A stretch of 64,000 bases of DNA from a virus. Below, in pieces: positions 1,690 through 21,053 of this stretch. The notes under the pieces are model-generated. The model ran no database searches. It was not told the origin of the DNA and worked only from the letters and a program-made list of their open reading frames with translations. The translations under genes and the position numbers were made by a program. The stretch is taken from IMG/VR virus record IMGVR_UViG_3300031951_010869, positions 1-64,000 of that record; one strand, written 5' to 3'. The first letter of the stretch is position 1, and the number at the start of each line of letters is the position of its first letter.

Positions 1690-2466
1690 ATGACCGATCA
1701 CTATGCAACACTAGGTGTTGCTCGAACTGCCACACAAGACGAAATCAAACGAGCTTTCCGTCGGCTGGCCAGCCAGCATCATCCGGACAAGGGCGGCGAT
1801 ACAGCCAAGTTCCAAGAGATACAAGCAGCCTACGACACTCTAGGCGACGAAGCCAAACGAGCTGAGTACAACAATCCACGCCCACAGTTTGGGGGATTCC
1901 CCAACGGCACACACTTCAACATGAATGATATTTTTTCAAGCATGTTTGGACAGAACTTTGCGCAACAGCAAGCTCGTAGAGGTCATGTGAGAATGAGTCT
2001 CTGGATCAGTCTTGCTGACGTTGCAACTGGTGGACAGCGCACAGTGACCATTGGTACACAGCAAGGTGCCCAAGCAGTTGAAATTGAAGTACCGCGTGGC
2101 ATTGACGACGGAGACAATGTGCAATACCAAGGCCTGGGCCCAGGTGGCGCAGATCTAGTGGTGCAGTATCGAGTGCAACCAGATCCAAACTGGGAACGGC
2201 AAGGACTAAACTTGATTACCAATCGCAAAATCAATGTGTTTGATTTGATATTGGGTGCGGACATTCGAGTTAGAGATTTGCTAGGCAATGAATTGTCTAT
2301 GACTGTGCCGTCGGGCACTCAACCGGGCACACTGCTAAGACTCAAAGGTCGTGGTCTGCCCAATCGTCAAGGTCAGCAGGGCGATGCGTTTGTTCGCATA
2401 TCAACCGAATTGCCCATACACATTGCCCCAGAAATTCGTGAAGCTATCCAAAAGCATCACAAATAA
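1690..2466 (+). CDS. dnaJ: DnaJ/CbpA-like co-chaperone
   Basis: The protein has 258 residues. Residues 1-62 form a J domain with the HPD tripeptide at 31-33, which stimulates the ATPase of DnaK/Hsp70. The segment after it is Gly/Phe/Asn-rich, and residues about 100-255 resemble the two beta-barrel substrate-binding domains of DnaJ. The Cys-rich zinc-finger region is absent, so this is a class B (CbpA-like) J protein, slightly shorter than cellular ones. It probably recruits host DnaK for folding or disassembly of phage complexes. It lies 63 nt upstream of a ClpA-type unfoldase, an obvious functional pairing. Transcription probably begins at the consensus promoter just upstream; no strong Shine-Dalgarno precedes the ATG. 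Confidence 0.88.
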   Translation: MTDHYATLGVARTATQDEIKRAFRRLASQHHPDKGGDTAKFQEIQAAYDTLGDEAKRAEYNNPRPQFGGFPNGTHFNMNDIFSSMFGQNFAQQQARRGHVRMSLWISLADVATGGQRTVTIGTQQGAQAVEIEVPRGIDDGDNVQYQGLGPGGADLVVQYRVQPDPNWERQGLNLITNRKINVFDLILGADIRVRDLLGNELSMTVPSGTQPGTLLRLKGRGLPNRQGQQGDAFVRISTELPIHIAPEIREAIQKHHK

Positions 2467-2478
2467 ATATTTTGAGTA

Positions 2479-2507
2479 TTGCATTACTCACAACAATGTG
2501 CTACAAT
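2479..2507 (+). promoter_or_regulatory. sigma70-like promoter upstream of ClpA-type gene
   Basis: TTGCAT (2479-2484), a 17-bp spacer and TACAAT (2502-2507) precede the ATG at 2530. The same 17-bp architecture recurs at several other gene groups of the window. Confidence 0.5.
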
Positions 2508-2529
2508 ACACAAGGTAACAACTTAACTC

Positions 2530-8133: not shown

Positions 8134-8136
8134 CGG

Positions 8137-8142
8137 TAAATA
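8137..8142 (+). promoter_or_regulatory. late-promoter-like TAAATA element
   Basis: TAAATA immediately after the stop of the glycosyltransferase gene ends 9 nt before the ATG at 8151; no Shine-Dalgarno lies between. Confidence 0.45.
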
Positions 8143-8150
8143 CAGTTCGT

Positions 8151-11100
8151 ATGAACATCAACGAACTGGATTCCTTCAAGCTGAGTGATGCTGTAAAGTT
8201 TCACAATCGTCTCAACCCTAAAATCTGGGGCAGGGACGAGCAATTGTTACCCGAAGTACGCGAAAAGCTGTTGGCCATTGCTGACAATTTTCGCGAATTT
8301 CTTGGCGTAGGTGACCTTGACGTCCGTGACATAACCATCTCAGGCAGTAATGCTGCCTACAGCTATACCCCATATTCCGACATTGATCTACACCTTGTGG
8401 TGGAGTTTCCTGCTGACGACGAAGTTTATCAGGAACTGTTCAATGCCAAAAAATACCAATATAACGATGAACACAAGTTGAGCATCGGCGGCGTGCCTGT
8501 GGAACTGTATGTGCAAAATGCAGCCGAGTCTCCTGTGAGTCAAGGTGAGTATTCTATCCCACGTGACGAATGGATTCAAGTGCCACGCAGAAAACGTGCC
8601 AGAATTGACGACACCTGTGTGCGAGCCAAGGTCGAAGATTTGGATGCTAGAATACATTCAGCAATTGAATCTGGCAACGCTGAATCCATGAGCAGACTGT
8701 GGGACAAGATCAAGGCCATGCGCCAAAGTGGCTTGGATGCTCACGGCGAGTTTGGGTGTGAAAACATTGTGTTCAAAATCCTGCGTAACAAAGGTTGCAT
8801 CAAGGATTTGCGCACAGCTAGAACAGCCGCACAAGATCACGAGCTGAGTCTACAAGAACGCCGAAAAAAGAAATCCCGAGTGCGTTATGGATTTGGCAGC
8901 TATTGGTCTCCTGGATTTGGCTACGGAGGAGAATCAGGCGAAGGTGGTGACGGTGGTGGTGGCGAAAGCATGCGCGAAGGCCATCAAGGACAACCCTACA
9001 GTTCAGAAGATGGTGTTGCTGCCAGCACACAAATGTTCTTGAATGAAGATGACACTGAGAGCATGGTGCAACAGTTTATTCAAGACACTGCTGAACGCTT
9101 GGGCATTGAACGCATGCCTGAAATTGTACTACATGACAATGACGGATGGAGTGAACAAAATCGTTCATTTGGCATGTACCAACCAGAGCTGCATGTTTTG
9201 CATGTGAATCTGCGCGATCGACATGTGATGGATATTCTTCGCACTGTGGCACACGAACTGGCACACTGCCGCCAACAGGAATTAGAACAATTGGATCACA
9301 CATCTGGCAACACAGGCTCTCCTGTGGAGAACGAAGCAAACGCTGTGGCTGGCATTATCATGCGAGACTTTGCTGATGCACACCCAGAACTGTTTGACCA
9401 TGAAGACATTCGTGAGTCATCTGGATACATTCCCACCTGGGCCGAACGCAACGATCCTCGATTTGAAATGGCACTGAGTGTGGATGTGCATCCAGGACAA
9501 ACTGGCACAGAAGCCAACAAGATGCGACTGGCCACTGATTCGCAAGGCCATCCACAACTGTTGCGAGCAGATGGCAAGGTAAAGTTAGCAGAAAGTCTAG
9601 CACAAGAATTTGAACTGTTTGAAGAACAAGACCTGTTTGAAATAAACATGGGCAGCAAAAATTTGCGCAGGGAAGCTGCCAAAACAGGTGCCATTGCTGG
9701 CATGGAATTTGAAATGATTGTGCCTGGTATGGAATCCGAAGATCCTGAAATGGAACCAGACTATGATCAGGATGAACGCTGTGTTAGCATTGATGATGCT
9801 GTGCGATTCTTTCATGATGGCGACTACAACGGCCGTAGAGATGTTGAACGCCTGCGTGAAAGAATGCAGGACGATTTCCAGGAATGGCTGGATGAAAAAC
9901 TTCGCGATGACTGGGGCGGTGAAAGCCAAGATTACATTCGTGACTGGCTTCGGAATAATGTAAATGAAGATGAATGGAATCCTAACGAGTTAACTGGTGA
10001 TGAACGAAACGAAGCATTTGATGAATTTGCAGCCAATGTAGACGCTGATCCTTCGAGTACTTACTACAATGAAGCCTTTGATGAATGGCGGGAAGAATTC
10101 CAAGAAAATTATGACGAAAGCGACTGGTTAGACGCCACAGACCTTGACAGAATGAGTGAGGTTGAGCAAATGTATGGAATGAATTGGCCCTACTGGACTA
10201 GCATGAACAGCGGCGAGATTGACGCAGATCAAGTGGCTGACGAATTCAGTCAGGCTGTGGGTCGTGAAGTGCGAGTGAACACAAGATATCATCAGTCCGG
10301 CGACAGACCTGGACCCAACAATCAATTCTATGTAGTAGAACCAGACGCCAGTTTGGAAGGCGACAATGACGGCGACGAAGGCTTGGAGTTTGTGAGCCCG
10401 CCCATGCCCATAGATGAACTGCTGAAAGATTTAAATGCCGTGAAGGCCTGGGCTGGACGCATGGGCGTTTATACCAACAGTTCGACTGGCCTGCACATCA
10501 ACATATCAGTGCCTGACTACAGTTTAGATCGTTTGGACTATGTAAAACTGGCCTTGCTGTTGGGCGACGAGTATGTGCTCAAACAATTTGGTCGCAGTTC
10601 CAATACCTACACCAAATCAGCACTAGGCAAGGTGCGTGATCGTGTGCGGTCCAACCCCGAAGACGCACAGCGTTTGCTGGACAAGATGAAAGGTCAAATG
10701 GGTGAACTGGCTTCCAAGGCCATCCATTCAGGCAGCACAGACAAGTACACATCAATCAACACCAAGAGCGGACACATTGAATTCCGTTCGCCGGGTGGTG
10801 ACTGGCTGGATGACAACTTTGACAAGATTGAAAACACTCTGTTGCGTTTCACAGTGGCCATGAGTGCAGCACTTAACCCTGAAGCCTATCGAGAAGAGTA
10901 TCAAAAGAAACTATACAAACTGTTGACTCAGGATCAAAAAGGGTCAGACACAATCCGATACTTTGCTGACTATGTGGCTGGCAAGATTCCCAAGGCTGCC
11001 TTGCGTAGTTTTGTCAAGCAAGCACAACTACAACGCAAGACGGAGCGTAATAAAACAAGCGGTGAAAAGATGTGGTGGAACGTTTCCAATCCTGGCAATA

Positions 11101-12320
11101 GTTATGCCAGTGTAGAAGTTGTTGCCACCTCTCGAGAAGAAGCCATTGAAAAAGCCTTGGGGGATGATGGCTATCCGTCTTGGGCCAACACACGACAATC
11201 TATTGTGGCTGAACCTGTGCGTCCGTATAATTTGGATGCACAATCTACACAAGACGACGACACAGCTAGTGCCTTTACTGCACCGCCAGGTTCTCAAGGT
11301 GGTGGCCGCCCCAATGACCCCAACGGTCGCTATGCCATTGTGCTACGCTCGGATCCAGGCCTGTATGGCAGTTTTACTGGCCCAGCACCTGACTATCAGT
11401 TTAGATTTAACATGGGCAATCCAGCGGAACAGGCACAAGGCAGATATGTTCTCCAAGCCTGGGCTGCTAGAAACAATGTGGTTGCTGCTGACTACATGGT
11501 GGTGGATACTGAACAATGGGATCGGCCTGCAGATGCAGCATCGGGTGGTATCATTGACATTGAACCAGATATAGAGGTGGTCTACCCTGGAAGCACAGCA
11601 GCCTTGGCACAACAGCGAGCCACGCCAGGCACATTCTCTGGTGCATGGAAGGTGTTGGTCAATGGTGAAGAAGTTCATAGATTTTCAGGCGTGGGCAACA
11701 ATCAAGGCGATGCTAACCGTGTAGCGGCTCAATGGTTGCGAAACAATGGTCGGGGAGTGTCAGGCGAAGGCTTTGAAGTTGTGCCAATCATGACAGAAGG
11801 TGTAGCCGAAGGCAAGGATCGCTACGGAAACTTTGATCCTCCTGGTCCTGAAAGCCGACCCACAATGCCAGCGGGCACTGTGCGAGTGGATGTGTCAGAC
11901 ATGTATGACTGGTACAAGTTGGGCAAGAACATTGCTAACTTAGACAGAGATAACACTGACGATTTTGGCAAAGGACCACCCAGTACTATTGTGAGTTTTG
12001 GCGACGAAGATCTTGAACATGAATACATCAAGCAGTTGGAAAAACTAGGGTTAACCACCACTGACATTGATCCTGTAGATCCCAATCAACCTGCTGGCAT
12101 CAAGCGTCAAAAAACTGATCCCACATACAACGTAGGTGAAAACTTTGCTGACGGTCGGAATCCCCAAGACAAAGGCGATTCAAAGCGACACGGCGTGCCC
12201 ACCAAAGCATCAGTAAGCACCCTGCGTAAAGTGGCCAAACAAGGCGGTCGCAAAGGACAATTGGCACACTGGATGGCCAACATGAAGGCTGGACGGGCTC
12301 GAGCCAAACGCAATAAATAA
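8151..12320 (+). CDS. giant multidomain protein: nucleotidyltransferase, zincin, amidoligase-like
   Basis: The 1389-residue protein contains several parts. Residues about 1-235 look like a polymerase-beta-type nucleotidyltransferase: GSN at 65-67 followed by YSDIDL with Asp 77 and 79. A Gly/Ser-rich linker with Gly runs (about 245-280) leads to a metallopeptidase-like region with HELAH at 368-372. Residues about 500-890 resemble an amidoligase of the glutamine-synthetase/ATP-grasp-like class ('GMEFEM' near 516, 'GLEFVSPPM', 'TGLHINIS', 'IEFRSPGGDW' near 875). A G-V-A-E-G motif at 1217-1221 precedes the last segment, and the C terminus is Arg/Lys-rich. Such an enzyme could link amines to proteins by amide bonds. 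Late promoter, position and the VAE motif suggest a head-packaged, possibly injected protein. Confidence 0.75.
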   Translation: MNINELDSFKLSDAVKFHNRLNPKIWGRDEQLLPEVREKLLAIADNFREFLGVGDLDVRDITISGSNAAYSYTPYSDIDLHLVVEFPADDEVYQELFNAKKYQYNDEHKLSIGGVPVELYVQNAAESPVSQGEYSIPRDEWIQVPRRKRARIDDTCVRAKVEDLDARIHSAIESGNAESMSRLWDKIKAMRQSGLDAHGEFGCENIVFKILRNKGCIKDLRTARTAAQDHELSLQERRKKKSRVRYGFGSYWSPGFGYGGESGEGGDGGGGESMREGHQGQPYSSEDGVAASTQMFLNEDDTESMVQQFIQDTAERLGIERMPEIVLHDNDGWSEQNRSFGMYQPELHVLHVNLRDRHVMDILRTVAHELAHCRQQELEQLDHTSGNTGSPVENEANAVAGIIMRDFADAHPELFDHEDIRESSGYIPTWAERNDPRFEMALSVDVHPGQTGTEANKMRLATDSQGHPQLLRADGKVKLAESLAQEFELFEEQDLFEINMGSKNLRREAAKTGAIAGMEFEMIVPGMESEDPEMEPDYDQDERCVSIDDAVRFFHDGDYNGRRDVERLRERMQDDFQEWLDEKLRDDWGGESQDYIRDWLRNNVNEDEWNPNELTGDERNEAFDEFAANVDADPSSTYYNEAFDEWREEFQENYDESDWLDATDLDRMSEVEQMYGMNWPYWTSMNSGEIDADQVADEFSQAVGREVRVNTRYHQSGDRPGPNNQFYVVEPDASLEGDNDGDEGLEFVSPPMPIDELLKDLNAVKAWAGRMGVYTNSSTGLHINISVPDYSLDRLDYVKLALLLGDEYVLKQFGRSSNTYTKSALGKVRDRVRSNPEDAQRLLDKMKGQMGELASKAIHSGSTDKYTSINTKSGHIEFRSPGGDWLDDNFDKIENTLLRFTVAMSAALNPEAYREEYQKKLYKLLTQDQKGSDTIRYFADYVAGKIPKAALRSFVKQAQLQRKTERNKTSGEKMWWNVSNPGNSYASVEVVATSREEAIEKALGDDGYPSWANTRQSIVAEPVRPYNLDAQSTQDDDTASAFTAPPGSQGGGRPNDPNGRYAIVLRSDPGLYGSFTGPAPDYQFRFNMGNPAEQAQGRYVLQAWAARNNVVAADYMVVDTEQWDRPADAASGGIIDIEPDIEVVYPGSTAALAQQRATPGTFSGAWKVLVNGEEVHRFSGVGNNQGDANRVAAQWLRNNGRGVSGEGFEVVPIMTEGVAEGKDRYGNFDPPGPESRPTMPAGTVRVDVSDMYDWYKLGKNIANLDRDNTDDFGKGPPSTIVSFGDEDLEHEYIKQLEKLGLTTTDIDPVDPNQPAGIKRQKTDPTYNVGENFADGRNPQDKGDSKRHGVPTKASVSTLRKVAKQGGRKGQLAHWMANMKAGRARAKRNK
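12314..12319 (+). promoter_or_regulatory. late-promoter-like TAAATA element
   Basis: AATAAATAA overlaps the stop of the giant gene; TAAATA ends 8 nt before the ATG at 12327. Confidence 0.4.
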
Positions 12321-12326
12321 CCCATC

Positions 12327-12680
12327 ATGAGATATAAAGAAATTCTTGAAGCCTGCTGGACTGGTTATCGCCAAGCAGGCATGAAAAACAAAGGTGGTCG
12401 TCAGGTGCCCAATTGTGTGCCTGTGAGCGAAACCGAGTTGGAAGAAAATCTCCGTGATTGGTTCAAAGACAAGTGGGTACGCTTTGGGCCCGACGGCAAG
12501 ATCCGTGGTGATTGTGCTAGAGGCAGTTCAAAAGAAGGCAAGCCCAAGTGTTTGCCGCAAGCCAAAGCACATGCCCTGGGCAAAAAAGGTCGTGCGTCAG
12601 CAGCCGCAAGAAAACGCAGACAAGATCCCAACCCCAACCGCACAGGAAAGGCCATCAACGTGGCCACTAAAAAGAAATGA
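12327..12680 (+). CDS. basic probable head-internal protein
   Basis: The 117-residue product is strongly basic, with a Lys/Arg-rich second half. It starts 'MRYKEILEA', a short leader ending in I-L-E followed by Ala, the pattern of a T4 prohead-protease cleavage site. The next segment contains 'CWTGYRQAGMKNKGG' and 'VPNCVP', a module I associate with phage structural proteins, then 'RFGPDGKIRGDCARG'. Four Cys might bind metal. DNA binding inside the capsid is plausible. It overlaps the following gene by 4 nt. Confidence 0.6.
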   Translation: MRYKEILEACWTGYRQAGMKNKGGRQVPNCVPVSETELEENLRDWFKDKWVRFGPDGKIRGDCARGSSKEGKPKCLPQAKAHALGKKGRASAAARKRRQDPNPNRTGKAINVATKKK

Positions 12681-14512
12681 TTATAGACGACTTATTTGAA
12701 GCCTCACAGTCATGCCCACACTGTGGTGGTCCCATGTTCAGTGAAATGCTGATGATGGAAAAGAAAGACGCCTGCTACTACAAAGTAAAAGCGTCAGCAA
12801 AAGTATGGCCATCAGCCTATGCATCTGGACGCTTGGTTCAGTGTCGCAAAAAAGGCGCTGGCAATTATGGCAACAAGTCTGAAGGTGTGATGGAAATGGA
12901 CAAATCACAAACACCTCCAGGGCGTGATGGTAGTAACGATGAAGGCGGCAAAAAAGAATACACTGCTAAAGCAACCACTGCTAAAAAAGTAGCCAAGGAT
13001 GCTGAAAAGATTCTAAACAAAGAGTTAAACAAGAAGCAAGGTGTGGCGGAAGCAACTGGCGATCAAAAGTTTGACTCAATGATGGGTCAGATCACAGGTG
13101 GTGCTACTGCTAGGCAAAGTGTAGATAGTTTGAATAAGTCTCTCACTGCAAGAACAGGCAGCGACCCAGAAACAGCATTGGCCAAATGGGGCCAGGAATT
13201 TATAAATTGGCTTGAAAAAATTTGCCGCAACTTTGAAAGGCAAGGTGTAGATAGGTTTAATAAATTAGAAAAAGTAGGTAATCTTGACGACGGTGGCGAA
13301 ACTATGGCGCACTGGTTGATTGAGGTCGCCAAACAATCCAATACCTCAGGCATTACACAGGCTGACATACAGGAATTTTCTAGCGAGTTTAATACCCACG
13401 GAATGTGGGCTTGGCATCAGTTTCCTATAGCTTGGGGTCTAAAAGAATGGCAAGACTATAAAGATCAATGGACTGGCCCTGATGGTTACATAGCCAATCT
13501 AGGACAAGGCATGGCGGAAGGCTCGGAGTCAGATGCTTACGGTAACACTGGTGAAAAGCATGAATGTGGTTCTTGCGATGGCACTGGAATAGATACACAC
13601 GATGATGAGTGCCCAGAATGCGGTGGCAAAGGCTGGGTGAGAAATAAGGAAGCATTGAAGAAGAAAGGCATGGCGGAAGAGTATGAACTAGCAGGTGTTG
13701 GCGTAGCATACGAACTGGGTCGTCGAGCATACAAACAAGGTATGACCATCAGAGACAATCCATATAGTGCCACAAGAGAAGCCCGTAAAAATGACGAATG
13801 GGCCAAAGGATTAGAACGCGGCAAACACGATGCAAATGATGCCAGACATTTCCGCAGTAGTGTAAGAGAACAAGGTGTAGCGGAAGGTGATCTTGACGAA
13901 GGCTGGAAAGAAAAATTAGGTGGCGCGGCATTGGCAGGTGCAATGGCACTGGGCGCAGGTGGTGCCAATGCTAGAGTTACTCCTGATGGCCAAGGCGGTT
14001 TCACTGGCGGATTCAAGCCAAGTGCAACAATGACATCACCTGCTGATAATAAACCGGCTGCAGAAGCACCAAAAGGCTTTAGCAAAGAATATTTACAAAG
14101 TGTAATAGACGGCAAGCACCCAAGACCAATGGTTAGTGTTGAAAAAGCAAAAGAACTATTAAAGAACATGCAAGAAGGTGACTTGAATGAAAAGTCAACC
14201 AGCCAAGCACAATTCCGCACCATGGCAGCAGCCGCACACAATCCTGAATTTGCAAAAAAAGTTGGCATCAGCCAAGACGTTGCTCAAGAGTTCCACGGTG
14301 CTGATCGCAAGCAGGACTATGCAGACTTGCCTAAAAAGGCTGACGAAAGCAAATCAACTCCCAAAGAAAAAGAAGCCGACTACGGTGATGATTATCAAGA
14401 CATGATTGCTAGAGTAAAGAAACTGGCTGGCTTGGGCCCACTTAAAACTGTGTATGATCCCCAAAAGCGTGTGTATCGCAACATGCCCACAGCGGTGCAA
14501 CCTAAAAAATGA
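12677..14512 (+). CDS. modular head-internal protein with repeated G-V/M-A-E motifs
   Basis: The 611-residue protein is a string of unrelated modules. The leader 'MIIDDLFEA' ends in L-F-E before Ala. A zinc-ribbon-like CPHC follows, then the 'KVWPSAYASG' module (about 32-70). G-V/M-A-E motifs stand at 122-125, 278-281, 331-334 and 400-403. Between them are a helical Trp-rich module (about 127-275), a DnaJ-type zinc module with CGSC and CPEC (about 293-318) and a helical basic module (about 336-396). After them come a Gly/Ala hydrophobic stretch (about 415-432) and low-complexity helices. The spacing suggests cleavage of a precursor into separate internal peptides by a prohead protease. No enzyme is recognised. 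It ends in a 4-nt overlap with the next gene. Confidence 0.65.
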   Translation: MIIDDLFEASQSCPHCGGPMFSEMLMMEKKDACYYKVKASAKVWPSAYASGRLVQCRKKGAGNYGNKSEGVMEMDKSQTPPGRDGSNDEGGKKEYTAKATTAKKVAKDAEKILNKELNKKQGVAEATGDQKFDSMMGQITGGATARQSVDSLNKSLTARTGSDPETALAKWGQEFINWLEKICRNFERQGVDRFNKLEKVGNLDDGGETMAHWLIEVAKQSNTSGITQADIQEFSSEFNTHGMWAWHQFPIAWGLKEWQDYKDQWTGPDGYIANLGQGMAEGSESDAYGNTGEKHECGSCDGTGIDTHDDECPECGGKGWVRNKEALKKKGMAEEYELAGVGVAYELGRRAYKQGMTIRDNPYSATREARKNDEWAKGLERGKHDANDARHFRSSVREQGVAEGDLDEGWKEKLGGAALAGAMALGAGGANARVTPDGQGGFTGGFKPSATMTSPADNKPAAEAPKGFSKEYLQSVIDGKHPRPMVSVEKAKELLKNMQEGDLNEKSTSQAQFRTMAAAAHNPEFAKKVGISQDVAQEFHGADRKQDYADLPKKADESKSTPKEKEADYGDDYQDMIARVKKLAGLGPLKTVYDPQKRVYRNMPTAVQPKK

Positions 14513-14865
14513 GAGCATACGAGTTTGCACAGTTGAAAGAAGGCGCTGTAGAAGATTTGGAAAAAGATCTAGATGATCCCAAGAGCTACAGCGCAATTGA
14601 TCACATGATGCAAACCATTGCTCGTGACTACGGCATTACTGGCAAACAACTGCACGACGAGTTTGTGAAAAAACACGGCACAATTCCAGACAAGTGGACC
14701 CGCGAGCAACTGCGTGAATTAAGTTTTCTAGGTTCACAATGCACCAAAGACTGTTCTGGTCACAGAGCAGGATATGCCTGGAGTCAAAAGCGCGGTGGCC
14801 GACAACCTGCAAGTTGGAGCGACAGTTTCAATCGCGGTGCCGCACTGTTTGCAGCAGGAAAATAA
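14509..14865 (+). CDS. probable head-internal protein with Cys/His module
   Basis: The protein has 118 residues. Its N terminus 'MRAYEFAQLKEG' resembles leaders of T4 internal proteins and ends in L-K-E followed by Gly, a plausible prohead-protease site. A helical middle is followed by 'CTKDCSGHRAGYAW' and a basic 'GGRQPASWSDSFNRGAA' tail, a compact module that may be DNA-binding or metal-binding. It overlaps the modular gene before it (ATGA), so it belongs to the same late operon. Confidence 0.6.
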   Translation: MRAYEFAQLKEGAVEDLEKDLDDPKSYSAIDHMMQTIARDYGITGKQLHDEFVKKHGTIPDKWTREQLRELSFLGSQCTKDCSGHRAGYAWSQKRGGRQPASWSDSFNRGAALFAAGK

Positions 14866-14883
14866 TTAGGCCACCCCAAAACC

Positions 14884-14889
14884 CAAATA
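14884..14889 (+). promoter_or_regulatory. late-promoter-like CAAATA element
   Basis: CAAATA (in acccaaatac) ends 10 nt before the ATG at 14899 and starts a glycan-enzyme operon. The match to the late core is one base off. Confidence 0.3.
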
Positions 14890-14898
14890 CATAACTGC

Positions 14899-15744
14899 AT
14901 GATTGATATCTGCACAGTAGTATTTGAACAGGAACTGCCGATCCTTAAAATTCAGGCACAAAGCATAAACAATTATTGTCGCAACATAGGCATAAGAAAT
15001 ATCTATGTGGTGCTCAATGATTACGAAACCCTAGCGGAAAAAATTGATCCAGCATGGTGGGGTGATCTAGCAAGCTCTGTCTTGGTAGTGCCGCGCACAG
15101 CATTCAGCAGTGCTTGGATAGCAAACGGCTGGGTAAGCCAGCAGATTCTAAAACTTCTCACCGCGTCTATAAGTTACAATGTCTACACCATGGTATTAGA
15201 CGCCAAGACTATATTTGTTAGACCCTTGGAAATATCCAAATTGGTTAACGAACAAGGTCAGCTTACTGTGGGACAATTGGATATATTTGATGTTTTTAAA
15301 CCCAGTAAGAACATTGTGGATCAGCTGTTTGACATCAACATGACCAAACAAGCTGGCCCTGGCGGTGTGCCATTTTTCTTCCACAATGACACTGTACGCT
15401 TTATGATTGCTGATACCACAATCAAAACACATGAAAGTTTTCCCACATGGTTTCAGCGCCAAGGCATGCTGACAGAATTCATGTTGTACTCAGGATTTTG
15501 TCAATACAAGTATGGACATTTGGATCATTTTTATACCAAACAAAACACACTTGGCGGTGTGGTAAATGTTTGTCATAGCGAAGTTGACCAGTTTGATAAG
15601 AAACTTGAACTCATGCGTGATAAAAATGCTCTCACAGTGAGTATTCATCGAAATGCTTGGTCAAAAATGTTACCAGAACAAAAAACTGCATTTAAGATGT
15701 TGTTGATTGATCGCGGCCATTTTGCTGCTTGGGAACTTGAATGA
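14899..15744 (+). CDS. glycosyltransferase-like protein (DUF6492 type)
   Basis: The 281-residue protein begins with strand-turn-strand pattern 'MIDICTVVFEQELPILKIQAQSI' and has 'YTMVLDAKTIFVRP' around residue 95-110, where the D-x-K replaces the usual DxD of GT-A enzymes. The overall pattern resembles the DUF6492 glycosyltransferase-like family. It overlaps a PIG-L deacetylase gene (ATGA), which in turn overlaps an SGNH hydrolase, so the three probably modify one glycan. Substrate unknown. Confidence 0.6.
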   Translation: MIDICTVVFEQELPILKIQAQSINNYCRNIGIRNIYVVLNDYETLAEKIDPAWWGDLASSVLVVPRTAFSSAWIANGWVSQQILKLLTASISYNVYTMVLDAKTIFVRPLEISKLVNEQGQLTVGQLDIFDVFKPSKNIVDQLFDINMTKQAGPGGVPFFFHNDTVRFMIADTTIKTHESFPTWFQRQGMLTEFMLYSGFCQYKYGHLDHFYTKQNTLGGVVNVCHSEVDQFDKKLELMRDKNALTVSIHRNAWSKMLPEQKTAFKMLLIDRGHFAAWELE

Positions 15745-16253
15745 ACGCATTGTGTATGGTAGCGCATCCAGATGACTGTGTGATATTTGGTTACAGTTAT
15801 ATTCATGCGCACCCTGAGCACAAATGGACCATTGGCTATTTAACGTACACTGAGCATGATCCCCGAGGCCAAGAACTTTTGGCGTTTTGGAAACGTCGGG
15901 GAATCGACTGTGTGTTTTTGGGCTTTGAAGACCACTGGCATGACAACGAGCAAAAAGTATTCACACGCTGGGCTGAAGAATCTGCCGACCGTGCCTGCTG
16001 GCACCTTGCTCGTGATTATGATCTAGTGCTCACCCATGACGAACTAGGAGACTATGGACACATACATCATGTGCTGGTACATCGTGCAGTGCAGTGGCAT
16101 CCTAGACTGGTAACTTTTGCACGGCCTGGTGAAGGAGTTACACATACAATTCCACCTGGCACATACAACTTAGACGAATTGCCCATGCACAAAGAAATTA
16201 TTGCTAGTTTTCACAGCGAAGAACACCGAAACAGTTACAAGGAAACACTATGA
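15741..16253 (+). CDS. PIG-L/LmbE-like deacetylase
   Basis: The 170-residue protein has the zinc-binding AHPDD motif at residues 8-12 and a later 'GHIHH' (about 104-108), the two metal sites of the PIG-L/LmbE family that removes N-acetyl groups from GlcNAc-type sugars. It is somewhat shorter than cellular members (about 220-250) but keeps both motifs. The gene overlaps both neighbours by 4 nt, between a glycosyltransferase-like and an SGNH hydrolase gene, consistent with trimming of a phage- or host-made glycan in the cytoplasm. Confidence 0.8.
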   Translation: MNALCMVAHPDDCVIFGYSYIHAHPEHKWTIGYLTYTEHDPRGQELLAFWKRRGIDCVFLGFEDHWHDNEQKVFTRWAEESADRACWHLARDYDLVLTHDELGDYGHIHHVLVHRAVQWHPRLVTFARPGEGVTHTIPPGTYNLDELPMHKEIIASFHSEEHRNSYKETL

Positions 16254-17065
16254 AATTAATGGTAGCAGGCTGCTCGTTTTCGGCAGTGAGTCAAACTTTG
16301 CCAGGCACTGCTTGGAGTGAACGCTTGGCCGAAAAACTAGGTGGCTGGGAGTTGGTTAACCTAGCACGCCAAGGTTGTTCAAACGGCGGCATCCGTATAC
16401 AAATAGACGAGATACGCAGACAGCGTCCAGACTTTGCTGTGATTGGTCCTACCTTCTGGGATCGTATGGAAATACCTGCAAACTCTGTGCCATATGATTG
16501 GTCACAGGCACCCAGCGCCGGGGAAAATCCTCCACTAGAACGACACCTACAAAATAGAAAACTGGGCAATGGCTACAACAGACAAGATGGCATACGCAAT
16601 GTAAATTATGGTCGGGAGCCATCAAACATGATCTGCGAAACTATTTTTACTCTTGCAGAAAACTTTGATCATCCGTACAGACAGGGCCGCATTACCAAAC
16701 AAGCGCAGAACGGCATACGTCACTGGATTGATTCAATCTATGACAATGCTTGGAAAAAGCAACAGGACGAGTGGATGATCCGAGAAGGTGTGATTACCAT
16801 GTTCTTGGATGACATCAAGTTTTTAGTGCTACCCAACTTGCTGTGGCCATTCGATCCTGACAATCATACCTTATGGCGTGATGCGTTTCCTAAACTTATC
16901 CCTGATCACTACATACAATTGGACACAACTAAAAGTCCTCAAGCCATATGTGGCAGTTACCCATTTTCAGGAGACGACCCTGGATATCATTCTGGTCCCG
17001 AAGGACAGGAAAAAATTGCTGAAAACTTCTATCAGCACATTTCAACCCACTTCGTCATCCCATAA
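16250..17065 (+). CDS. SGNH-hydrolase-like protein
   Basis: The 271-residue protein starts with 'MKLMVAGCSFSA', a GDSL-like block I with the Ser nucleophile at about 9-11, has 'VNLARQGCSNGG' (Gly and Asn oxyanion residues) near 36-47, and ends with 'DDPGYHSGPEGQEKIAENF', where Asp and His would complete the triad. It probably acts as an esterase or acyltransferase on sugars. It ends in a 24-nt tail-to-tail overlap with a reverse-strand gene. Four further SGNH-like genes occur in the window. Confidence 0.65.
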   Translation: MKLMVAGCSFSAVSQTLPGTAWSERLAEKLGGWELVNLARQGCSNGGIRIQIDEIRRQRPDFAVIGPTFWDRMEIPANSVPYDWSQAPSAGENPPLERHLQNRKLGNGYNRQDGIRNVNYGREPSNMICETIFTLAENFDHPYRQGRITKQAQNGIRHWIDSIYDNAWKKQQDEWMIREGVITMFLDDIKFLVLPNLLWPFDPDNHTLWRDAFPKLIPDHYIQLDTTKSPQAICGSYPFSGDDPGYHSGPEGQEKIAENFYQHISTHFVIP

Positions 17066-18169
17066 CCAATGGCCACCTTCAATGTGTTGATGCAGTAGAT
17101 CAGACATTGTGGCTTGAAACTGAATCTGGTAACTGCGCAATCTAGCTTGGTTGTGATCCAGTATGGCTTGTATGCGTTCATACAACACTTTGGGATTTTC
17201 AAAATATGCCAACTGCAATACCTGATGCATGGCCCGTTCAAATCGTATGCTGTCCACAGGATGTTCATCGTAGCTTTCGTCAAGGATACTGCTAAATGTT
17301 TCAAACCCTAGTTCGCGCATGCGAGCAAGAAATCCTTGTGCGCCAAAAAACACAAAAATTCTTCTGGCTAACAAACACTTGGTAACTTTTTCACTCCAGA
17401 AAAATGTTGTGCCAGTGCCCAGTGTTTCACACACAATGCTGTAATGACTGCGTTGATAGATGTTCCAGGGCACATATGGACTGATACTGCGAGTGATGTT
17501 GTCCGTGACTTCCCATGCAGGATTTAAGTTTGCACTCACGTAAGGCCACTTTAGCGGAGTGTCATAAAAAGTCTGCTGAAATTGATCACAGTTTCTGTCA
17601 ATCAATTTGCCTTCAAAGCAATCTCTGTAGGTCACAATGCTACGATCCAACAGCCCAGTTTTGTCCATGGCCATCATCACATAGTCACGGTGCGGTCTAC
17701 GTGCTCCTAACAGTGCTTCAAACATGTAGGGTTTTTGATCTTGGTAGGTGTCTTGGTATTCGTTGTGTCGCAAGAGATTGTAAGCCCACCAAGGGCGATA
17801 CACCATGCAGGATTGATCCAATTCTTCTCCTTGCACAAGACCGCCTACTGCCAACACATAACGTTGAATTTTGTTTTTTTCAATCCAGGCACGTATTTCT
17901 TTAACACTGTAGTATTCAATGTCACTCAGCAGTACCAAATCAAACTGACTGAGATCCATGTCAGCCAGTGCTGGATCATAATCAAACACGCCGGGCTCGT
18001 TGCACAGCACACGAAATGCTGCTACAGACCACGGTTGACTCAGCGCCAGTGCAGGATCGTTGGTAGTTTCAAATCTGCCCAGACCCCAATCAGCTGTGAC
18101 ATCAATACTTTGTGATGCAGGTTGATACACAGGATATCGGAACTTTGCTGGGTATGTTATTGTGTACAT
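17042..18169 (-). CDS. exostosin/GT-B-like glycosyltransferase, paralog 1
   Basis: The protein has 375 residues. The C-terminal third carries a signature shared by four proteins of this window: 'SIVCETLG...FWSEKVTKCL...', then a Leu-Gly-Phe-Glu-Thr-Phe segment and 'ESYDE'. This arrangement (Glu-Thr, Ser-Glu-Lys, Leu-Gly-Phe, Ser-Tyr-Asp) is typical of exostosin- or fucosyltransferase-like GT-B C-terminal domains that bind the nucleotide sugar. The N-terminal half is specific to this paralog. It is the last gene of a reverse operon behind a radical SAM gene and a DUF6492-like gene, overlapping the latter by 13 nt. Confidence 0.6.
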   Translation of the reverse strand: MYTITYPAKFRYPVYQPASQSIDVTADWGLGRFETTNDPALALSQPWSVAAFRVLCNEPGVFDYDPALADMDLSQFDLVLLSDIEYYSVKEIRAWIEKNKIQRYVLAVGGLVQGEELDQSCMVYRPWWAYNLLRHNEYQDTYQDQKPYMFEALLGARRPHRDYVMMAMDKTGLLDRSIVTYRDCFEGKLIDRNCDQFQQTFYDTPLKWPYVSANLNPAWEVTDNITRSISPYVPWNIYQRSHYSIVCETLGTGTTFFWSEKVTKCLLARRIFVFFGAQGFLARMRELGFETFSSILDESYDEHPVDSIRFERAMHQVLQLAYFENPKVLYERIQAILDHNQARLRSYQIQFQATMSDLLHQHIEGGHWLWDDEVG

Positions 18170-19026
18170 TGCTTCACCATGTGTTGATAATGTTCAAAAT
18201 TAGGTATGTCCAATGTGTCCCAATCAAGTTGCATGCTTTGACTTAGGTCCGGCACAGCATCACATACTGCATTGAACTCTTTGGCATTCAATGTAGACAA
18301 CAGCTCCAATTGATTGTATTCAAAACGTTTCTGAAAAGTGTAGTTGATGGGATCACAACATGCTGCCCAGTTTCCTATCAATTCATATTCTGAAAACCAT
18401 TTGATTATTTCGCCTGTGCCCCAGGGAGGTATTGTGGGCATGCCAGGAACAGCGTCAATAATAGCGTCCAGCCACAGTTTGTTGGGCCAACGTTGGGCCA
18501 GCAGTTTGCGCAATTCAAGCCAGTGTGTGCGCAGTACAGGCACAAGCTCTGACACAAAACAATGCGGGCTGGCCTCTGGCAATCCAGTAATGCTTTCAAA
18601 TACCCCATGATAACTGCCGTGCTTGGTGTCAGGTATCACAAGATAATTCAGTTGTTCACCATCCCAGCATCTATAAGGTTCAATCATAAAAGTGTCACAG
18701 TCATGCATGAGTATGACATCTTCTTCCAACAGGTCTCGGTAGGCCAGTTTGATTGCTTGTTGTCGCAACCACCAGCCCCGATAGTCATGGTCAAACACCC
18801 AGTTGTTGACTTCAGGATAGCGTTGGTATATCACACTGTCATTCATGTACTTTAGCTGTGAAGTATCAATACCATAGCGTTCAAACACTGGCCATAGTTC
18901 ATGCTGTGGCACTGGCGAAGCTATTATGGTGTAATCTATGCCCAGTAAATTATGGTCCCACTGCATGGCAAAACATGCATGTGGCACACGATATCTTGCT
19001 AGGAACAATACTCTTGCTACAGTCAT
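18157..19026 (-). CDS. glycosyltransferase-like protein (DUF6492 type)
   Basis: The 289-residue protein has 'VILMHDCDTFMIEPYRCW' around residues 104-122, with an Asp-Cys-Asp in the DxD position of GT-A enzymes, and a 'WLRQQAIKLAYRDLL' helix before it. The pattern matches DUF6492-like sugar transferases and resembles the forward-strand gene at 14899. It is the middle gene of the reverse operon; its end overlaps the exostosin-like gene. Confidence 0.6.
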   Translation of the reverse strand: MTVARVLFLARYRVPHACFAMQWDHNLLGIDYTIIASPVPQHELWPVFERYGIDTSQLKYMNDSVIYQRYPEVNNWVFDHDYRGWWLRQQAIKLAYRDLLEEDVILMHDCDTFMIEPYRCWDGEQLNYLVIPDTKHGSYHGVFESITGLPEASPHCFVSELVPVLRTHWLELRKLLAQRWPNKLWLDAIIDAVPGMPTIPPWGTGEIIKWFSEYELIGNWAACCDPINYTFQKRFEYNQLELLSTLNAKEFNAVCDAVPDLSQSMQLDWDTLDIPNFEHYQHMVKQCTQ

Positions 19027-19069
19027 AACAAGTTGACAATTTGATTCATGAATTGTTGTAGATCTTTAT

Positions 19070-20116
19070 TCATGTTCGATTACAAGTTACTACACATTGA
19101 TAAGTTCTGCCAGCCGCAATGCTAGACTCATTCCAGGTTTGTTCCACACGTTCAAACCATTCAAGACAGTGTTCAAGAGGATATTCCAATGCATTGTTTT
19201 CTGTTACTAATGGAGCCAGTTCTTGATTGCCGGGATGATTCATGGTATGCGGATAAAACCCCAAAAAGCAGCAGGGATAAACAGAGCCGTCGGCAGCTAT
19301 GTATATTTCTCGATTGCGTTTGTGATGACACTGCATGTCTAGCACAGGAGTATCTTTGTGATGTGTGATTGTTTTGGCATCGTACCAAGTGATATGACTT
19401 TCCAAAAAAGGATGCACTGTTTGATTGGTAAGACCGCCAGGGTCTGGACCAATCTTGTGACTGAATGTGCCGTCTCGATTGTATACCGACGTGCGATCTC
19501 TTCCATCATAGATATTTTCAAACTTTGCAAAGCCCATTTGGGCAGCCATATCTCTGCAGGCCTGTTCCTGATGACGGTTATGATCAAACGGCACAAACCT
19601 CCATACAGCTTGTCCACCAGCGTTGATCAGTGCTTGAGCATGTGAAATTATTCTATGCCAGTCTGTGTCTTGGCGATACAAATGATGCGTGTCTGCTAGG
19701 CCATCAATGGCAAAACCCACTGTAACTTTGGGTAGAGCCAGTCTTGCCCACCATTCTGGACTGCGCACAGAACCATTGGTATTGATAATAACAGGTACCT
19801 GATGCTCTACCAGGTATTCTACTATTTCAACAGCATCACGTGCAGAAGCAAAATCACCCAGATTTCCATTGAATGCCACACCTCTAAATTCATATATGAT
19901 TGGCACACGATCTCCAATGGGCGGATCGGGCTGAATTAGTTGTGCTAAAACGTTAGGAGTTAGAATTTTCTTGAAATCTCCAACACTGAGTTCACACAGC
20001 GGATATCCACTATTGTAATCATACCCTCGATAGTTTCTCATGCACATGGGGCATCTGGCATTGCATCTAGTGGTCAATTCCACATGCACTTTGCGTATAT
20101 CATTCAATTTTAGCAT
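19070..20116 (-). CDS. radical SAM enzyme with SPASM-like C terminus
   Basis: I place the start at the ATG at 20116 (348 residues), because upstream in-frame codons would read through a TATAAATA late promoter 4 nt before that ATG. The cluster motif CNARCPMC (Cys 18, 22, 25) binds the [4Fe-4S] of radical SAM enzymes. The C-terminal region with 'CHHKRNREIYIAADGSVYPC' followed by Cys resembles a SPASM/twitch auxiliary cluster domain. Such enzymes modify peptides or sugars. It is the first gene of a reverse late operon with two glycosyltransferase-like genes, so a glycan or glycopeptide role is likely. Confidence 0.8.
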   Translation of the reverse strand: MLKLNDIRKVHVELTTRCNARCPMCMRNYRGYDYNSGYPLCELSVGDFKKILTPNVLAQLIQPDPPIGDRVPIIYEFRGVAFNGNLGDFASARDAVEIVEYLVEHQVPVIINTNGSVRSPEWWARLALPKVTVGFAIDGLADTHHLYRQDTDWHRIISHAQALINAGGQAVWRFVPFDHNRHQEQACRDMAAQMGFAKFENIYDGRDRTSVYNRDGTFSHKIGPDPGGLTNQTVHPFLESHITWYDAKTITHHKDTPVLDMQCHHKRNREIYIAADGSVYPCCFLGFYPHTMNHPGNQELAPLVTENNALEYPLEHCLEWFERVEQTWNESSIAAGRTYQCVVTCNRT

Positions 20117-20120
20117 GCAA

Positions 20121-20128
20121 TATTTATA
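20121..20128 (-). promoter_or_regulatory. late promoter TATAAATA (reverse)
   Basis: A perfect TATAAATA on the reverse strand lies 4 nt before the radical SAM ATG at 20116, so transcription should start within or at the start codon. It is back to back with a forward GATAAATA at 20141-20148. Confidence 0.6.
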
Positions 20129-20140
20129 GACCCACTTAAT

Positions 20141-20148
20141 GATAAATA
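20141..20148 (+). promoter_or_regulatory. late-promoter-like GATAAATA (forward)
   Basis: GATAAATA ends 6 nt before the ATG at 20154 and is divergent to the reverse TATAAATA at 20121-20128. Confidence 0.5.
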
Positions 20149-20153
20149 TCTTT

Positions 20154-20438
20154 ATGAACAAAAAGTTTGTCAAGGTAATTTGCGAAGTTTATTGCCAAGG
20201 TTGGACTGACCCTCCAACCTACCGAGCTTATGTCAATAATGAATTGTTTACCGAACGCACCTGGGTTTGGCGTGATCAGCATTTGGAAGAGTCTTTTCAA
20301 ATTGCCGCAGAACCAGGTAAGTACAAGTTGCGCTATGAATTATTGCCTGGAACATTAGCGTCAATACAGCAGCTGAATTGGCGTGTGGTTGATGGCCCGG
20401 GCATGATAGACAGCGGCGGCGAGTTGGAAATACTATAA
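20154..20438 (+). CDS. small beta-rich unknown protein
   Basis: I take the ATG at 20154 (94 residues) rather than an ATG at 20139 that would lie within the late-promoter element. The product is rich in Trp, Tyr, Glu and Leu with alternating beta pattern ('KFVKVICEVY', 'KYKLRYELLP'), suggesting a small beta-sandwich. No family is recognised. The TAA overlaps the next ATG (taatg), linking it to a small head-type gene. Confidence 0.55.
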   Translation: MNKKFVKVICEVYCQGWTDPPTYRAYVNNELFTERTWVWRDQHLEESFQIAAEPGKYKLRYELLPGTLASIQQLNWRVVDGPGMIDSGGELEIL

Positions 20439-20650
20439 TGAAAATTCAAGAAATCATGGAAAATGCGTCAGTGGGCGGCACCAGTGCTGGTAGTATAGCA
20501 CCTGTGAGCCAGGCCTTAGGCATGGTGTCAAGATCAGGCGGATCCTTGTTGAGTGGTAAATATACAACTGATCCTACGCCTAACACGCCCAAGGAATACA
20601 AAAGGAATAAGAATGTTAGCGGACGCTTTAAAAACACTCCTGGCAACTGA
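20438..20650 (+). CDS. small probable head-internal protein
   Basis: The 70-residue protein begins 'MKIQEIMEN', a leader with I-M-E before Asn that resembles N-terminal prohead-protease sites of neighbouring genes. The rest is Ser/Gly/Thr-rich with a basic C terminus and probably unstructured. The end overlaps the Dps-like gene by 38 nt in another frame. Confidence 0.5.
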   Translation: MKIQEIMENASVGGTSAGSIAPVSQALGMVSRSGGSLLSGKYTTDPTPNTPKEYKRNKNVSGRFKNTPGN

Positions 20651-21053
20651 GGAGGCTTTTGCTCTCAAAGCCAAACAGTTCCACTGGAACGTTGAAGGCC
20701 CAGACTTTGGCCAGCTTCACGCTTTCTTTGACGCAATCCATGACGATGTTTATGGTGCTACAGATCCCACAGCAGAATACATACGTGCCCTGGGCGACTA
20801 TGCTCCTGGTAGTTTTGAACGATTTGTAGAATTAACAAAAATACAGGGCCAAACAAAAATTCCACGTGCCCGACTCATGCTAGAAGAACTCTTGGCCAAC
20901 AACGGCCAAATGTTGGATCTTCTCAATCAAGTCTTCCAAGTAGCAACTGAAGAAAACCAACAAGGTATTGCTAACTTCATTGCTGAACGCATCGATGCTC
21001 ATCAAAAGCATGGCTGGATGCTGAGAAGTTACCTGAAAGAAGAAAGAGCATGA
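20613..21053 (+). CDS. dps: Dps-like ferritin
   Basis: I choose the ATG at 20613 (146 residues), preceded by aaaagga, because the Dps fold starts right after it. The motif 'AKQFHWNVEGPDFGQLHAFFDAIHDDV' spans about residues 18-45 (read as QFHWNVEG, then FGQLH, then D-A-I-H-D-D) and matches the ferroxidase-site region of Dps proteins: paired His and acidic residues at the dimer interface. Dps proteins oxidise Fe(II) and can bind and compact DNA. It lies within the head-protein operon, overlapping both neighbours, so virion packaging or protection of DNA from oxidative damage is possible. Confidence 0.85.
   Translation: MLADALKTLLATEEAFALKAKQFHWNVEGPDFGQLHAFFDAIHDDVYGATDPTAEYIRALGDYAPGSFERFVELTKIQGQTKIPRARLMLEELLANNGQMLDLLNQVFQVATEENQQGIANFIAERIDAHQKHGWMLRSYLKEERA

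Follow-up and report, generated by a model that had tools for sequence, protein, structure and literature searches.

Some large uncultured phages appear to join protein cassettes with a shared 20-base sequence that probably also encodes a capsid protease site

Results

Genes, leaders and sites of the locus

We analysed a window of 64,000 nt that lies inside a 364-kb parent record, and all coordinates are positions in this window. The features of the locus are the following, with slashes marking predicted cuts.

8136..8143, + strand: late-promoter-like box GTAAATAC, 5' of the 1389-aa gene
8151..12320, + strand: 1389-aa multi-domain protein
11796..11813, + strand: linker copy EGVAEG of the 1389-aa protein (3/18 mismatches to the consensus)
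12132..12140, + strand: probable further site of the 1389-aa protein, NVGE/ then NFADG, before the C-terminal module
12313..12320, + strand: late-promoter-like box ATAAATAA, preceding the overlapping 117-, 611- and 118-aa genes
12327..12680, + strand: 117-aa leader protein with CW..GY and KPKCLP..DPNPNR modules, also found in cyanophage proteins
12327..12350, + strand: leader of the 117-aa gene, MRYKEILE/ then A (8 aa)
12677..14512, + strand: 611-aa putative cassette polyprotein
12677..12700, + strand: leader of the 611-aa gene, MIIDDLFE/ then A (8 aa)
12881..12898, + strand: linker copy 1, EGVMEM (6 mismatches to the consensus)
13037..13054, + strand: linker copy 2, QGVAEA (2 mismatches)
13052..13519, + strand: module m1 (aa 126-281)
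13505..13522, + strand: linker copy 3, QGMAEG (2 mismatches)
13520..13678, + strand: module m19, DnaJ-type zinc module
13664..13681, + strand: linker copy 4, KGMAEE (5 mismatches)
13679..13885, + strand: module m8, weakly ribosome-modulation-factor-like (PF04957, E 0.0053, below cut-off)
13871..13888, + strand: linker copy 5, QGVAEG (2 mismatches)
13886..14509, + strand: module m11
14509..14865, + strand: 118-aa leader protein, leader MRAYEFAQLKE/ then G (11 aa)
20438..20650, + strand: 70-aa leader protein, leader MKIQEIME/ (8 aa) then NASVGG

An earlier note on this DNA had described short leaders ending in I/L-x-E in the genes at 12327, 12677, 14509 and 20438, and direct reading confirmed all four. 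The hydrophobic-x-Glu propeptide end is therefore present in 4/4 of the named genes, which had been picked for this very feature. The C-terminal SQCTKDCSGHRAGY module of the 118-aa protein is common to L026, whose leader ends in GVAE. The start MRA.EF and the C-terminal module are all that L026 has in common with the 118-aa protein, and a reading in which L026 and L037 are homologous to the N-terminal part of that protein was therefore rejected. Late-promoter-like boxes lie upstream of three of the four transcription units, versus 66 of 422 genes overall. The gp23 and protease genes of G001 have no late box, which counts against our main reading.

The 611-aa protein does carry the four G-V/M-A-E motifs previously noticed (GVAE at aa 122, GMAE at 278, GMAE at 331 and GVAE at 400), and a GVME at aa 70 brings the G-[VM]-[AM]-E sites to five. 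Its zinc ribbon (CPHCGG) was verified by direct reading. The DnaJ-type zinc module claimed in the same note holds as a similarity (PF00684, aa 297-324, E 5.5e-4), but the match is below the curated cut-off. Within m11, aa 507-559 match PHROGs 16759, 22033 and 25121, of which the last two are named virion structural protein. Structure models of m1 (12 sequences, pLDDT 50) and of the whole 611-aa protein without alignment (pLDDT 38) were uninformative.

The 1389-aa protein begins with an NTase-like region (PF01909, E 0.0046, below cut-off), followed by a zincin-like HELAH motif at aa 368, identified by motif, and an Amidoligase_2 domain at aa 691-885, above cut-off. Then come the linker and the C-terminal NFADG module. 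The single G-V/M-A-E reported for this protein is GVAE at aa 1217. In another phage (L124) the NFADG module follows a leader, as MRINELLE/NFADG.

Motif and leader statistics in the parent record

We compared the 451 ORFs called in the parent record (117,723 aa) with 300 within-protein shuffles. We counted 11 occurrences of the bare motif G[VM][AM]E, spread over 5 ORFs; the shuffles gave 4.4 ± 2.0. This count is weak evidence because the shuffles reach 11 too, and we therefore used the clustering of sites and an extended motif. Five sites fell in one protein, where shuffles gave at most two, and [QEK]G[VM]AE was observed nine times against 0.42 ± 0.63 (at most three) in the shuffles.

The leader pattern was found in 10 of the 451 ORFs; shuffles treated equally gave a mean of 3.4 and a maximum of 10, reached by 1 in 200 (an earlier shuffle, with mean 2.4 and maximum 7, tried fewer starts than in the real ORFs). 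A second phage (G011) had the pattern in 4 of 156 ORFs, a number attained in 10 of 200 shuffles. Taken by itself, the leader pattern is weak evidence, and its false matches include the start of gp23. A strict leader was present in 23 of 117 GVAE proteins versus 9 of 465 other genes.

The linker is conserved as DNA and constrained at two residues

The IMG/VR pattern search behind the site counts returned at least 120 matches. Among the matches listed, 77 of the 118 ORFs found by one EQGVAEG had at least one further site, and after removal of near-duplicates a second site was present in 72 of 109. In the control, a rearranged motif (EAKGVEG, in which Lys stands where EQGVAEG has Gln), any G[VM]AE was found in 2 of 41 ORFs. 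The contigs are not independent samples, and one of them (L080) is the window's own phage. The GTDB collection of cellular genomes gave seven single matches to the linker.

The DNA consensus of the linker, GAGCAAGGTGTGGCGGAAGGC, spans about 20 bp and is read as EQGVAEG, with synonymous positions about 90% fixed. Its Ala codon is GCG at a frequency of 0.93 versus 0.11 in the background. Linkers within one contig and between contigs differ equally (0.86 and 0.88). The linker is carried by the longest of the strand's three frames in 98/98 exact and 401/414 similar copies; read directly, its other two frames have no stop. In these conservation and frame sets, one site was kept where flanks were more than 70% identical. 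No inverted repeat was visible by eye in the 21-bp consensus. The copies in the window diverge from the consensus by 2-6 mismatches, which counts against our main reading.

Constraint was assessed on 296 of the 414 copies; left out were 13 that did not lie in the longest frame and 105 EQGVAEG sites from loci fetched by pattern. The ratio of nonsynonymous to synonymous changes was 30:78 at P3 and P1 versus 322:186 elsewhere (Fisher P 2e-11, the copies not being independent), and P1 had a dN/dS-like value of 0.02. Drifting copies keep chiefly P3 (V/M) and P1 (E), more than P5, P4, P2 or P1'.

Modules are exchanged at the linker

Homology between multi-site proteins tends to end at linker sites, and the pieces between them are therefore exchangeable modules. 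We measured this in three runs on 99 proteins that had two or more G[VM]AE, with HSPs no shorter than 40 aa and no more than 92% identical. HSP ends fell within 2 aa of a masked linker in 23-25% of cases versus 3-4% for decoys, and HSPs spanned linkers 287-294 times versus 829-877 times for decoys. In DNA, 350 site pairs (81 distinct) show identity climbing at the linker, from about 0.25 to about 0.95, and 255 (89 distinct) show it dropping again. Three swaps are clean: one flank is 97-99% identical, the other 19-28%. Module m1 of the window, e.g., was found in 13 of the 99 multi-site proteins, with at least five neighbours on its left and at least seven on its right.

Thirteen kinds of modules, listed by eye, follow the leader Glu in one gene and, directly or within a few residues, a G[VM]AE inside another. 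Only cases with G[VM]xE close to the aligned start entered this list, and an aggregate test is its unfiltered counterpart. The aggregate effect is modest: 36 of 349 internal copies come after G[VM]xE, compared with 3.3% at random positions, and leaderless genes gave 12 of 325 compared with 1.6%. Several modules can be bounded by a leader Glu or an internal Glu alike. The exchange of modules at the linker is a computed result, like this equivalence of boundaries, the DNA conservation, the frame restriction, the P3/P1 constraint and the presence of the protease in nine linker-bearing records. It goes beyond the earlier note: the sites are module-exchange points with a conserved DNA of about 20 bp, and the exchange of cassettes is the larger finding.

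Prohead protease and head genes

The earlier note had proposed to look for the prohead protease in the rest of the genome. We found a T4-type Peptidase_S77 encoded in the 364-kb record, together with gp23 and with head genes in T4 order. The gp67-like core protein adjoining the protease gene has a GMME site. In this acidic protein one Glu is invariant in 8/8 sequences, at the boundary between acidic and basic parts (MME/A, MME/S, LME/Y, VME/Y, IRE/Y and TRE/Y). The small core proteins at the gp68 position start with M-x-[IL]-x-E-[FVM]-[FI] in seven of eight phages, as called.

The S77 protease was identified in nine linker-bearing records, including two (G001 and G002) that both carry the 611-aa gene. 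In the first set it was present in 3 of 12 GVAE records. In the second set (48 of 50 records covered) it was present in 6 of 48, i.e., in six of the eight records of at least 100 kb and in none of the 40 smaller ones. One record of 343 kb (G005) gave no S77 protease, portal or gp23 match. The absences in both sets and in G005 count against our main reading. The S77 profile search of 16 records ran without a positive control alongside. The 12 GVAE records had no HK97-type protease (S78).

Discussion

Probable capsid-targeted cassette polyproteins

We consider it likely that these genes encode late, capsid-targeted cassette polyproteins, swapped by recombination in a linker of about 20 bp that encodes a prohead-protease site. 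The proteins would be precursors of a T4-type jumbo phage, brought into the prohead core by a short leader that resembles the capsid targeting sequence (CTS) of T4. There, a Peptidase_S77 of the gp21 type would cut after the leader Glu and after the Glu of each internal [V/M]-x-E linker, releasing several small proteins that would remain with the DNA and pass with it into the next host. The linker DNA, of about 20 bp, is common to phages whose modules are otherwise unrelated. Recombination inside it would exchange whole modules in frame, and one sequence would therefore serve as both joint and cutting site. We infer the cleavage, packaging, injection and recombination pathway. The earlier claim that polyproteins are cut inside the capsid is thereby upheld in part, by inference from the S77 of the parent record, the P3/P1 constraint, the interchangeable Glu boundaries and the late boxes.

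A further-reaching possibility, less likely than not, is an integron-like, population-wide cassette system, in which the linker DNA is maintained as a recombination site and its translation is the protease site. The DNA would be kept by selection on itself or by a dedicated enzyme. An arriving cassette would therefore be at once in frame, packaged and released separately.

The linker could instead be a recombination joint only, a flexible spacer that stays uncut. This is unlikely: such a spacer would accord with the extreme synonymous conservation (e.g., GCG at the Ala codon), with module breakpoints that fall within the linker and with the equal difference of linkers within and between contigs, but not with the placement of nearly all copies in the longest frame, though the other frames are stop-free, the retention of P3 and P1 in drifting copies, or the leader Glu as an equivalent boundary for several modules. 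Leader and linker might also be an uncut motif that serves scaffold binding or targeting and recurs with each module, as the resemblance of the leader to a targeting sequence and the similar N-termini of the gp68-position proteins would suggest. In the T4 CTS, however, targeting maps mainly to residues 4 and 7, whereas residues 8 and 10, which correspond to P3 and P1, are those needed for processing (PMC9026906, section 2.6); the constraint here is on the processing pair, and we regard an uncut motif of this kind as improbable.

That a zincin-like peptidase within the polyproteins, such as the HELAH region of the 1389-aa protein, cuts the sites is very improbable, even though zincin processing is proposed for polyvalent proteins in the part of PMC5512222 used here. 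The 611-aa protein has no HExxH, and the same kind of site occurs in the core protein adjoining S77. Cutting by the 1389-aa protein in trans is conceivable. Internal translation starts, with the V/M alternation reflecting GTG and ATG, are hardly credible. GTG is the Val codon in 92% of QGVAEG sites and ATG its main alternative, yet in copies with 1-3 mismatches the third base of Val is non-G 32 times (GTA 28) and the first base changes from G to T once. Internal starts also leave the conservation of GCG and GAA and the P1 constraint unexplained, and we rejected them.

Implications

In some large uncultured phages, proteins appear to be assembled from swappable cassettes. The 20-base sequence that joins these is shared, and it probably doubles as the code for the site at which the phage's own protease cuts in the capsid. 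Phages bring proteins into the cell before gene expression. If our reading is true, a phage could change the proteins that it delivers to bacteria as one changes cartridges, and the question addressed is how injected cargo changes so fast. Joining, reading frame, packaging and release all seem to be handled by this one short sequence. It may also offer a natural model for how T4-type capsids could be loaded with several cargo proteins. The consensus, or EQGVAEG, is a machine-usable handle for listing candidate injected proteins in uncultured phages, and it divides long unknown phage proteins into real units.

Comparison with known systems

The internal head proteins of T4 (IPI-III and Alt, cut by gp21) likewise have a short N-terminal leader ending in hydrophobic-x-Glu, and the portions of PMC9026906 and PMC3012670 drawn on describe an S77 protease and varied cargo behind a conserved leader. 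According to the same portions, they consist of propeptide and mature protein (Alt is also cut C-terminally), whereas here each precursor strings together many cargo modules, which are separated by internal sites and joined by a DNA linker that they share. The specificity of gp21 is given as L/I-x-E in that part of PMC9026906; window leaders have I/L at P3, but linkers have V/M, unlike T4, which counts against our main reading. The head propeptides of phiKZ and SPN3US have several A-x-E or S/A-x-E sites with gp21-like, Glu-directed cuts, and the multiply cut part is, in the sections consulted of PMC10052503 and PMC9026906, a propeptide that is mostly removed. Here, in contrast, what lies between the sites are conserved modules that can be exchanged.

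Polyvalent proteins (Iyer et al. 2017, PMC5512222) are, as far as the part used here describes them, likewise multi-domain and of injected type, with shuffled domains, zincins and NTases. The 1389-aa protein has, as they do, at least two unrelated effector-type domains per chain. The same part proposes zincins as processors; neither a common DNA linker nor a site for a prohead protease is described there between domains.

Cyanophage proteins beside gp15/16/17 share the zinc and basic modules found here, in varying combination. Those compared (P-SSM2 PSSM2_123, S-CAM8 SXCG_00192 and S-SRM01 gp206) are all without GVAE, as are the proteins examined from seven tblastn-matched regions of cultured phages. 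A scan of all seven regions allowing up to 5 mismatches gave three matches, including one QGVDES in S-SRM01 gp206, in frame and 5/18 bases off the linker, which chance could give. T4-type and lambdoid phages have mobile regulatory cassettes and linker sequences, short shared DNA that guides modular exchange and lies between genes. Unlike these intergenic linkers, the one described here lies inside the reading frame and encodes a probable cutting site.

Leaders and linker motifs in the window phage

The window makes up 64 kb of the 65.9 kb of its virus record and is identical to the 364-kb IMG/VR contig G001 at 16 of 16 sampled 40-base points. On checking the sequence, we found all four leaders (short N-termini ending in I/L-x-E) as described by the earlier note, in the genes at 12327 (117 aa), 12677 (611 aa), 14509 (118 aa) and 20438 (70 aa), together with its G-[VM]-[AM]-E sites, five in the 611-aa protein (the four G-V/M-A-E that it had reported and one GVME) and one in the 1389-aa protein. 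Because the stops of the 117- and 611-aa genes overlap the starts of the 611- and 118-aa genes, respectively, the three genes probably form a single transcription unit.

The bare motif occurs at 11 sites in five of the 451 script-called ORFs of G001, which proves little because 300 within-protein shuffles (mean 4.4) also reached 11. The extended motif [QEK]G[VM]AE (9 seen vs 0.42 in shuffles) and the clustering of sites (five in one protein vs a shuffle maximum of two) do more. The five ORFs encode the 611-, 1389-, 470- and 878-aa proteins and an acidic 293-aa protein adjoining the prohead protease.

The 1389-aa protein (8151-12320) has a polyvalent-type makeup, with an NTase-like N-terminus, a HELAH zincin-like motif and Amidoligase_2 (E 3.3e-8). 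In the 611-aa protein, module m8 (13679-13885) weakly resembles ribosome modulation factor (PF04957, E 0.0053, under the cut-off); a packaged protein of this kind, if it is one, would be interesting. A hydrophobic, signal-peptide-like Ala/Gly run lies immediately past linker 5 (13886-13990), and other modules, in the fetched loci L030, L031 and L156, start with a Tat-like RRGFLRG. Neighbouring features of the window are:

1690-4812: DnaJ-type protein (PF00226, PF01556) and, beside it, a 760-aa protein matching the ATP-dependent protease family phrog_4871
14899-20173: sugar-/peptide-modification-like gene cluster (DUF6492, PIG-L deacetylase, radical SAM/SPASM; the latter two under the cut-off)
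20613-21053: Dps/ferritin-like protein (PF00210, E 6e-24), overlapping the end of the 70-aa leader gene

The modification-like cluster separates the two groups of leader genes.

Spread of the linker

A degenerate DNA pattern for EQGVAEG had at least 120 matches in IMG/VR, and a full scan with a control pattern for the rearranged EAKGVEG had 55. Among the matches listed, 118 of 120 were in frame within an ORF, and 77 of these 118 ORFs held at least two G[VM]AE (295 sites altogether; 72 of 109 ORFs among the matches listed once near-duplicates were removed). Only two of the 41 control ORFs held one such site, and none held two. Allowing at most three mismatches, a 17-base linker pattern matched 101 times in 15 linker-carrying (GVAE) records (about 2.8 Mb) and seven times, always with three mismatches, in seven control records (about 1.0 Mb); its reverse matched twice and never, respectively. 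The multi-module gp206 of the cultured Synechococcus phage S-SRM01 (L253 9189-9206) has a single in-frame QGVDES, 5 of 18 bases off the linker, which may be chance.

Modules are exchanged at a conserved DNA joint

The 99 proteins that have two or more sites total 69,207 aa, and cutting them at each site yielded 225 internal segments of median length 78 aa. Grouping placed 166 of 416 segments in 59 clusters, several of which occur in different company. When linkers and random decoys were masked alike, homology ended at most 2 aa from a linker in 23-25% of cases vs 3-4% for decoys, and homologies crossed decoys about three times as often as linkers (three runs). Twelve proteins share the module found at aa 126-281 of the 611-aa protein (m1), which can be aligned from V-A-E through to G-V/M-A-E; outside these bounds the proteins diverge, near-copies excepted. 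On one flank of the linker the contigs of three swaps (L012/L013, L012/L018, L073/L093) match at 97-99%, and on the other they are unrelated (0.19-0.28). At the contig end of L017 (9538-11392), m1 apparently restarts after m5, as a tandem repeat or an assembly artefact.

The joint is conserved as DNA. Codon choice at 146 QGVAEG sites hardly varies (CAA 0.97, GGT 0.96, GTG 0.92, GCG 0.93, GAA 0.94), compared with 0.74, 0.46, 0.25, 0.11 and 0.80 across the same genes. The consensus of 281 distinct-flank sites, chosen by protein motif, is [GA]AGCAAGGTGTGGCGGAAGGC, and conservation drops sharply on both sides. Exact copies of GGTGTGGCGGAA number 232 in 1.61 Mb, and every one encodes GVAE in whichever of its strand's three frames is longest. 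A DNA-only search (at most four mismatches in 18 bases) found 414 sites, 401 of them in the longest frame of the strand, and three shuffled cores found 8, 3 and 10, all at four mismatches. Drift has put the window phage's own linkers 2-6 mismatches from the consensus.

Where two sites share a module on one side only, their identity moves from chance level to about 0.95 on reaching the linker. When the shared module is the one that follows the linker (350 pairs from a limited set of modules, 81 distinct sequence pairs), four of six linker third positions agree at 0.94-0.97, and those of the Glu and the next codon at 0.55 and 0.53, with many module third positions near 0.5. In the 255 reverse pairs (likewise limited, 89 distinct sequence pairs) the linker third positions range over 0.51-0.95, the shared module being mostly near-identical. 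Homogenising inside a genome might have produced such likeness, but we rejected it because two linkers from the same contig differ about as much as two from different contigs (0.86 vs 0.88 differences at five third positions). Copying of linkers along with cassettes in a common pool and selection on the DNA remain as explanations of the conservation.

The linker peptide and its equivalence to leaders

If DNA alone mattered, drift should ignore codons. Over 296 copies, with the EQGVAEG sites of pattern-fetched loci removed, nonsynonymous relative to synonymous change (per possible change) was 1.41 at P5, 0.86 at P4, 0.29 at P3, 0.54 at P2, 0.02 at P1 and 0.56 at P1'. P1 is Glu in 290 copies, and P3 is V in 272, M in 17, I in three and L in two. 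PMC9026906 describes T4 gp21 as cleaving after L/I-x-E, with residues 8 and 10 of the IPIII leader controlling processing; the same pair of positions is constrained in the linker, but the P3 residue differs.

A list restricted to alignments with G[VM]xE close to their start holds, by eye, 13 module kinds that begin behind the Glu of a leader in some gene and, inside a different one, right after a G[VM]AE or only a few residues from it. Such pairs include MRITEFINE|GWSQKYKSSINCSH and QGVAE|EWSQKYKSSINCSH, MIIDDLFE|ASQSCPHCGG and QGVAE|EQHSCPHCNG, and MRFTEFISE|NEKPGLWANIHAKR and GVAE|ESKGLWANIHAKR; the leaders of L026 and L037 themselves have GVAE at their end (MRAQEFTQGVAE|GRKPF). For several modules, leader and linker are thus the same boundary. 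The unfiltered test points the same way, if modestly: of the 349 internal copies of starts of leader genes, 36 come after G[VM]xE (3.3% at random positions), against 12 of 325 for genes lacking a leader (1.6% at random).

The simplest account is a precursor that would be loaded into the capsid and cut by the prohead protease, its cassettes being swapped via the common DNA joint. The analysis shows the exchange of modules, the conservation of the DNA, the preference for one frame, the constrained positions and, for several modules, the equivalence of leader and linker boundaries; from these we infer the cutting, the loading, the injection of the products and the route of recombination. Taken singly, the parts of this account are familiar: capsid targeting sequence, gp21-type protease, polyvalent proteins, modular exchange. 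Their union in one in-frame 20-bp linker is not known to us, and no paper on such linkers was found by title and abstract, where coverage of subscription journals is thin; those listed for the exact linker strings concern unrelated subjects.

Prohead protease, timing and virion

The earlier note had proposed looking for the prohead protease elsewhere in the genome, and G001 does encode a Peptidase_S77. This family and gp23 were found in three of 12 records searched (G001, G002, G011); G002 also has the 611-aa gene. Along G001 the genes run portal, 72-aa protein, acidic 293-aa protein, protease, 364-aa core protein and gp23, the T4 order, with T4 names assigned by position. Among 48 further GVAE records the protease occurs in six, all among the eight that reach 100 kb; the 40 smaller ones gave no hit. 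It occurs in two of 14 control records (two of the seven of at least 100 kb), both apparently one phage. A profile of the eight proteases, run without a positive control, found none in 16 hitless records. A T4-type portal, sought in seven records without a protease hit (G003 to G006, G010, G015, G057), was seen in G010 only, truncated at the contig end; these contigs thus mostly show no T4-type head cluster. Terminase is present in G005 and G003.

The acidic protein, aligned from eight phages, has one invariant Glu at its acid/basic boundary, with M, I, L, V or T two places before. The small gp68-position proteins beside the portal have a leader-like start, M-x-[IL]-x-E-[FVM]-[FI], in seven of the eight phages as called (L262-L267, G001, G011).

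A box, NTAAATA[ACT], which we liken to the T4 late promoter, lies within 60 bases upstream of 66 of 422 G001 genes (L045-L063), and is about half as frequent across the whole of G001 as in one shuffle (142 vs 268). It precedes the portal, two core proteins and a gene that we label sheath-like, and is absent before gp23 and the protease. It probably serves this phage as its late promoter. The box is found ahead of the 1389-aa gene, the 117-aa gene (together with the 611- and 118-aa genes) and the 878-aa gene; the 470-aa gene lacks it.

The 611- and 878-aa proteins each have stretches matching PHROGs annotated as virion structural protein. A 1470-aa GVAE protein has an N-terminal cytidylyltransferase-type domain, and PMC3037559 reports a putative cytidylyltransferase in the virion of cyanophage S-SM1, which is only suggestive.
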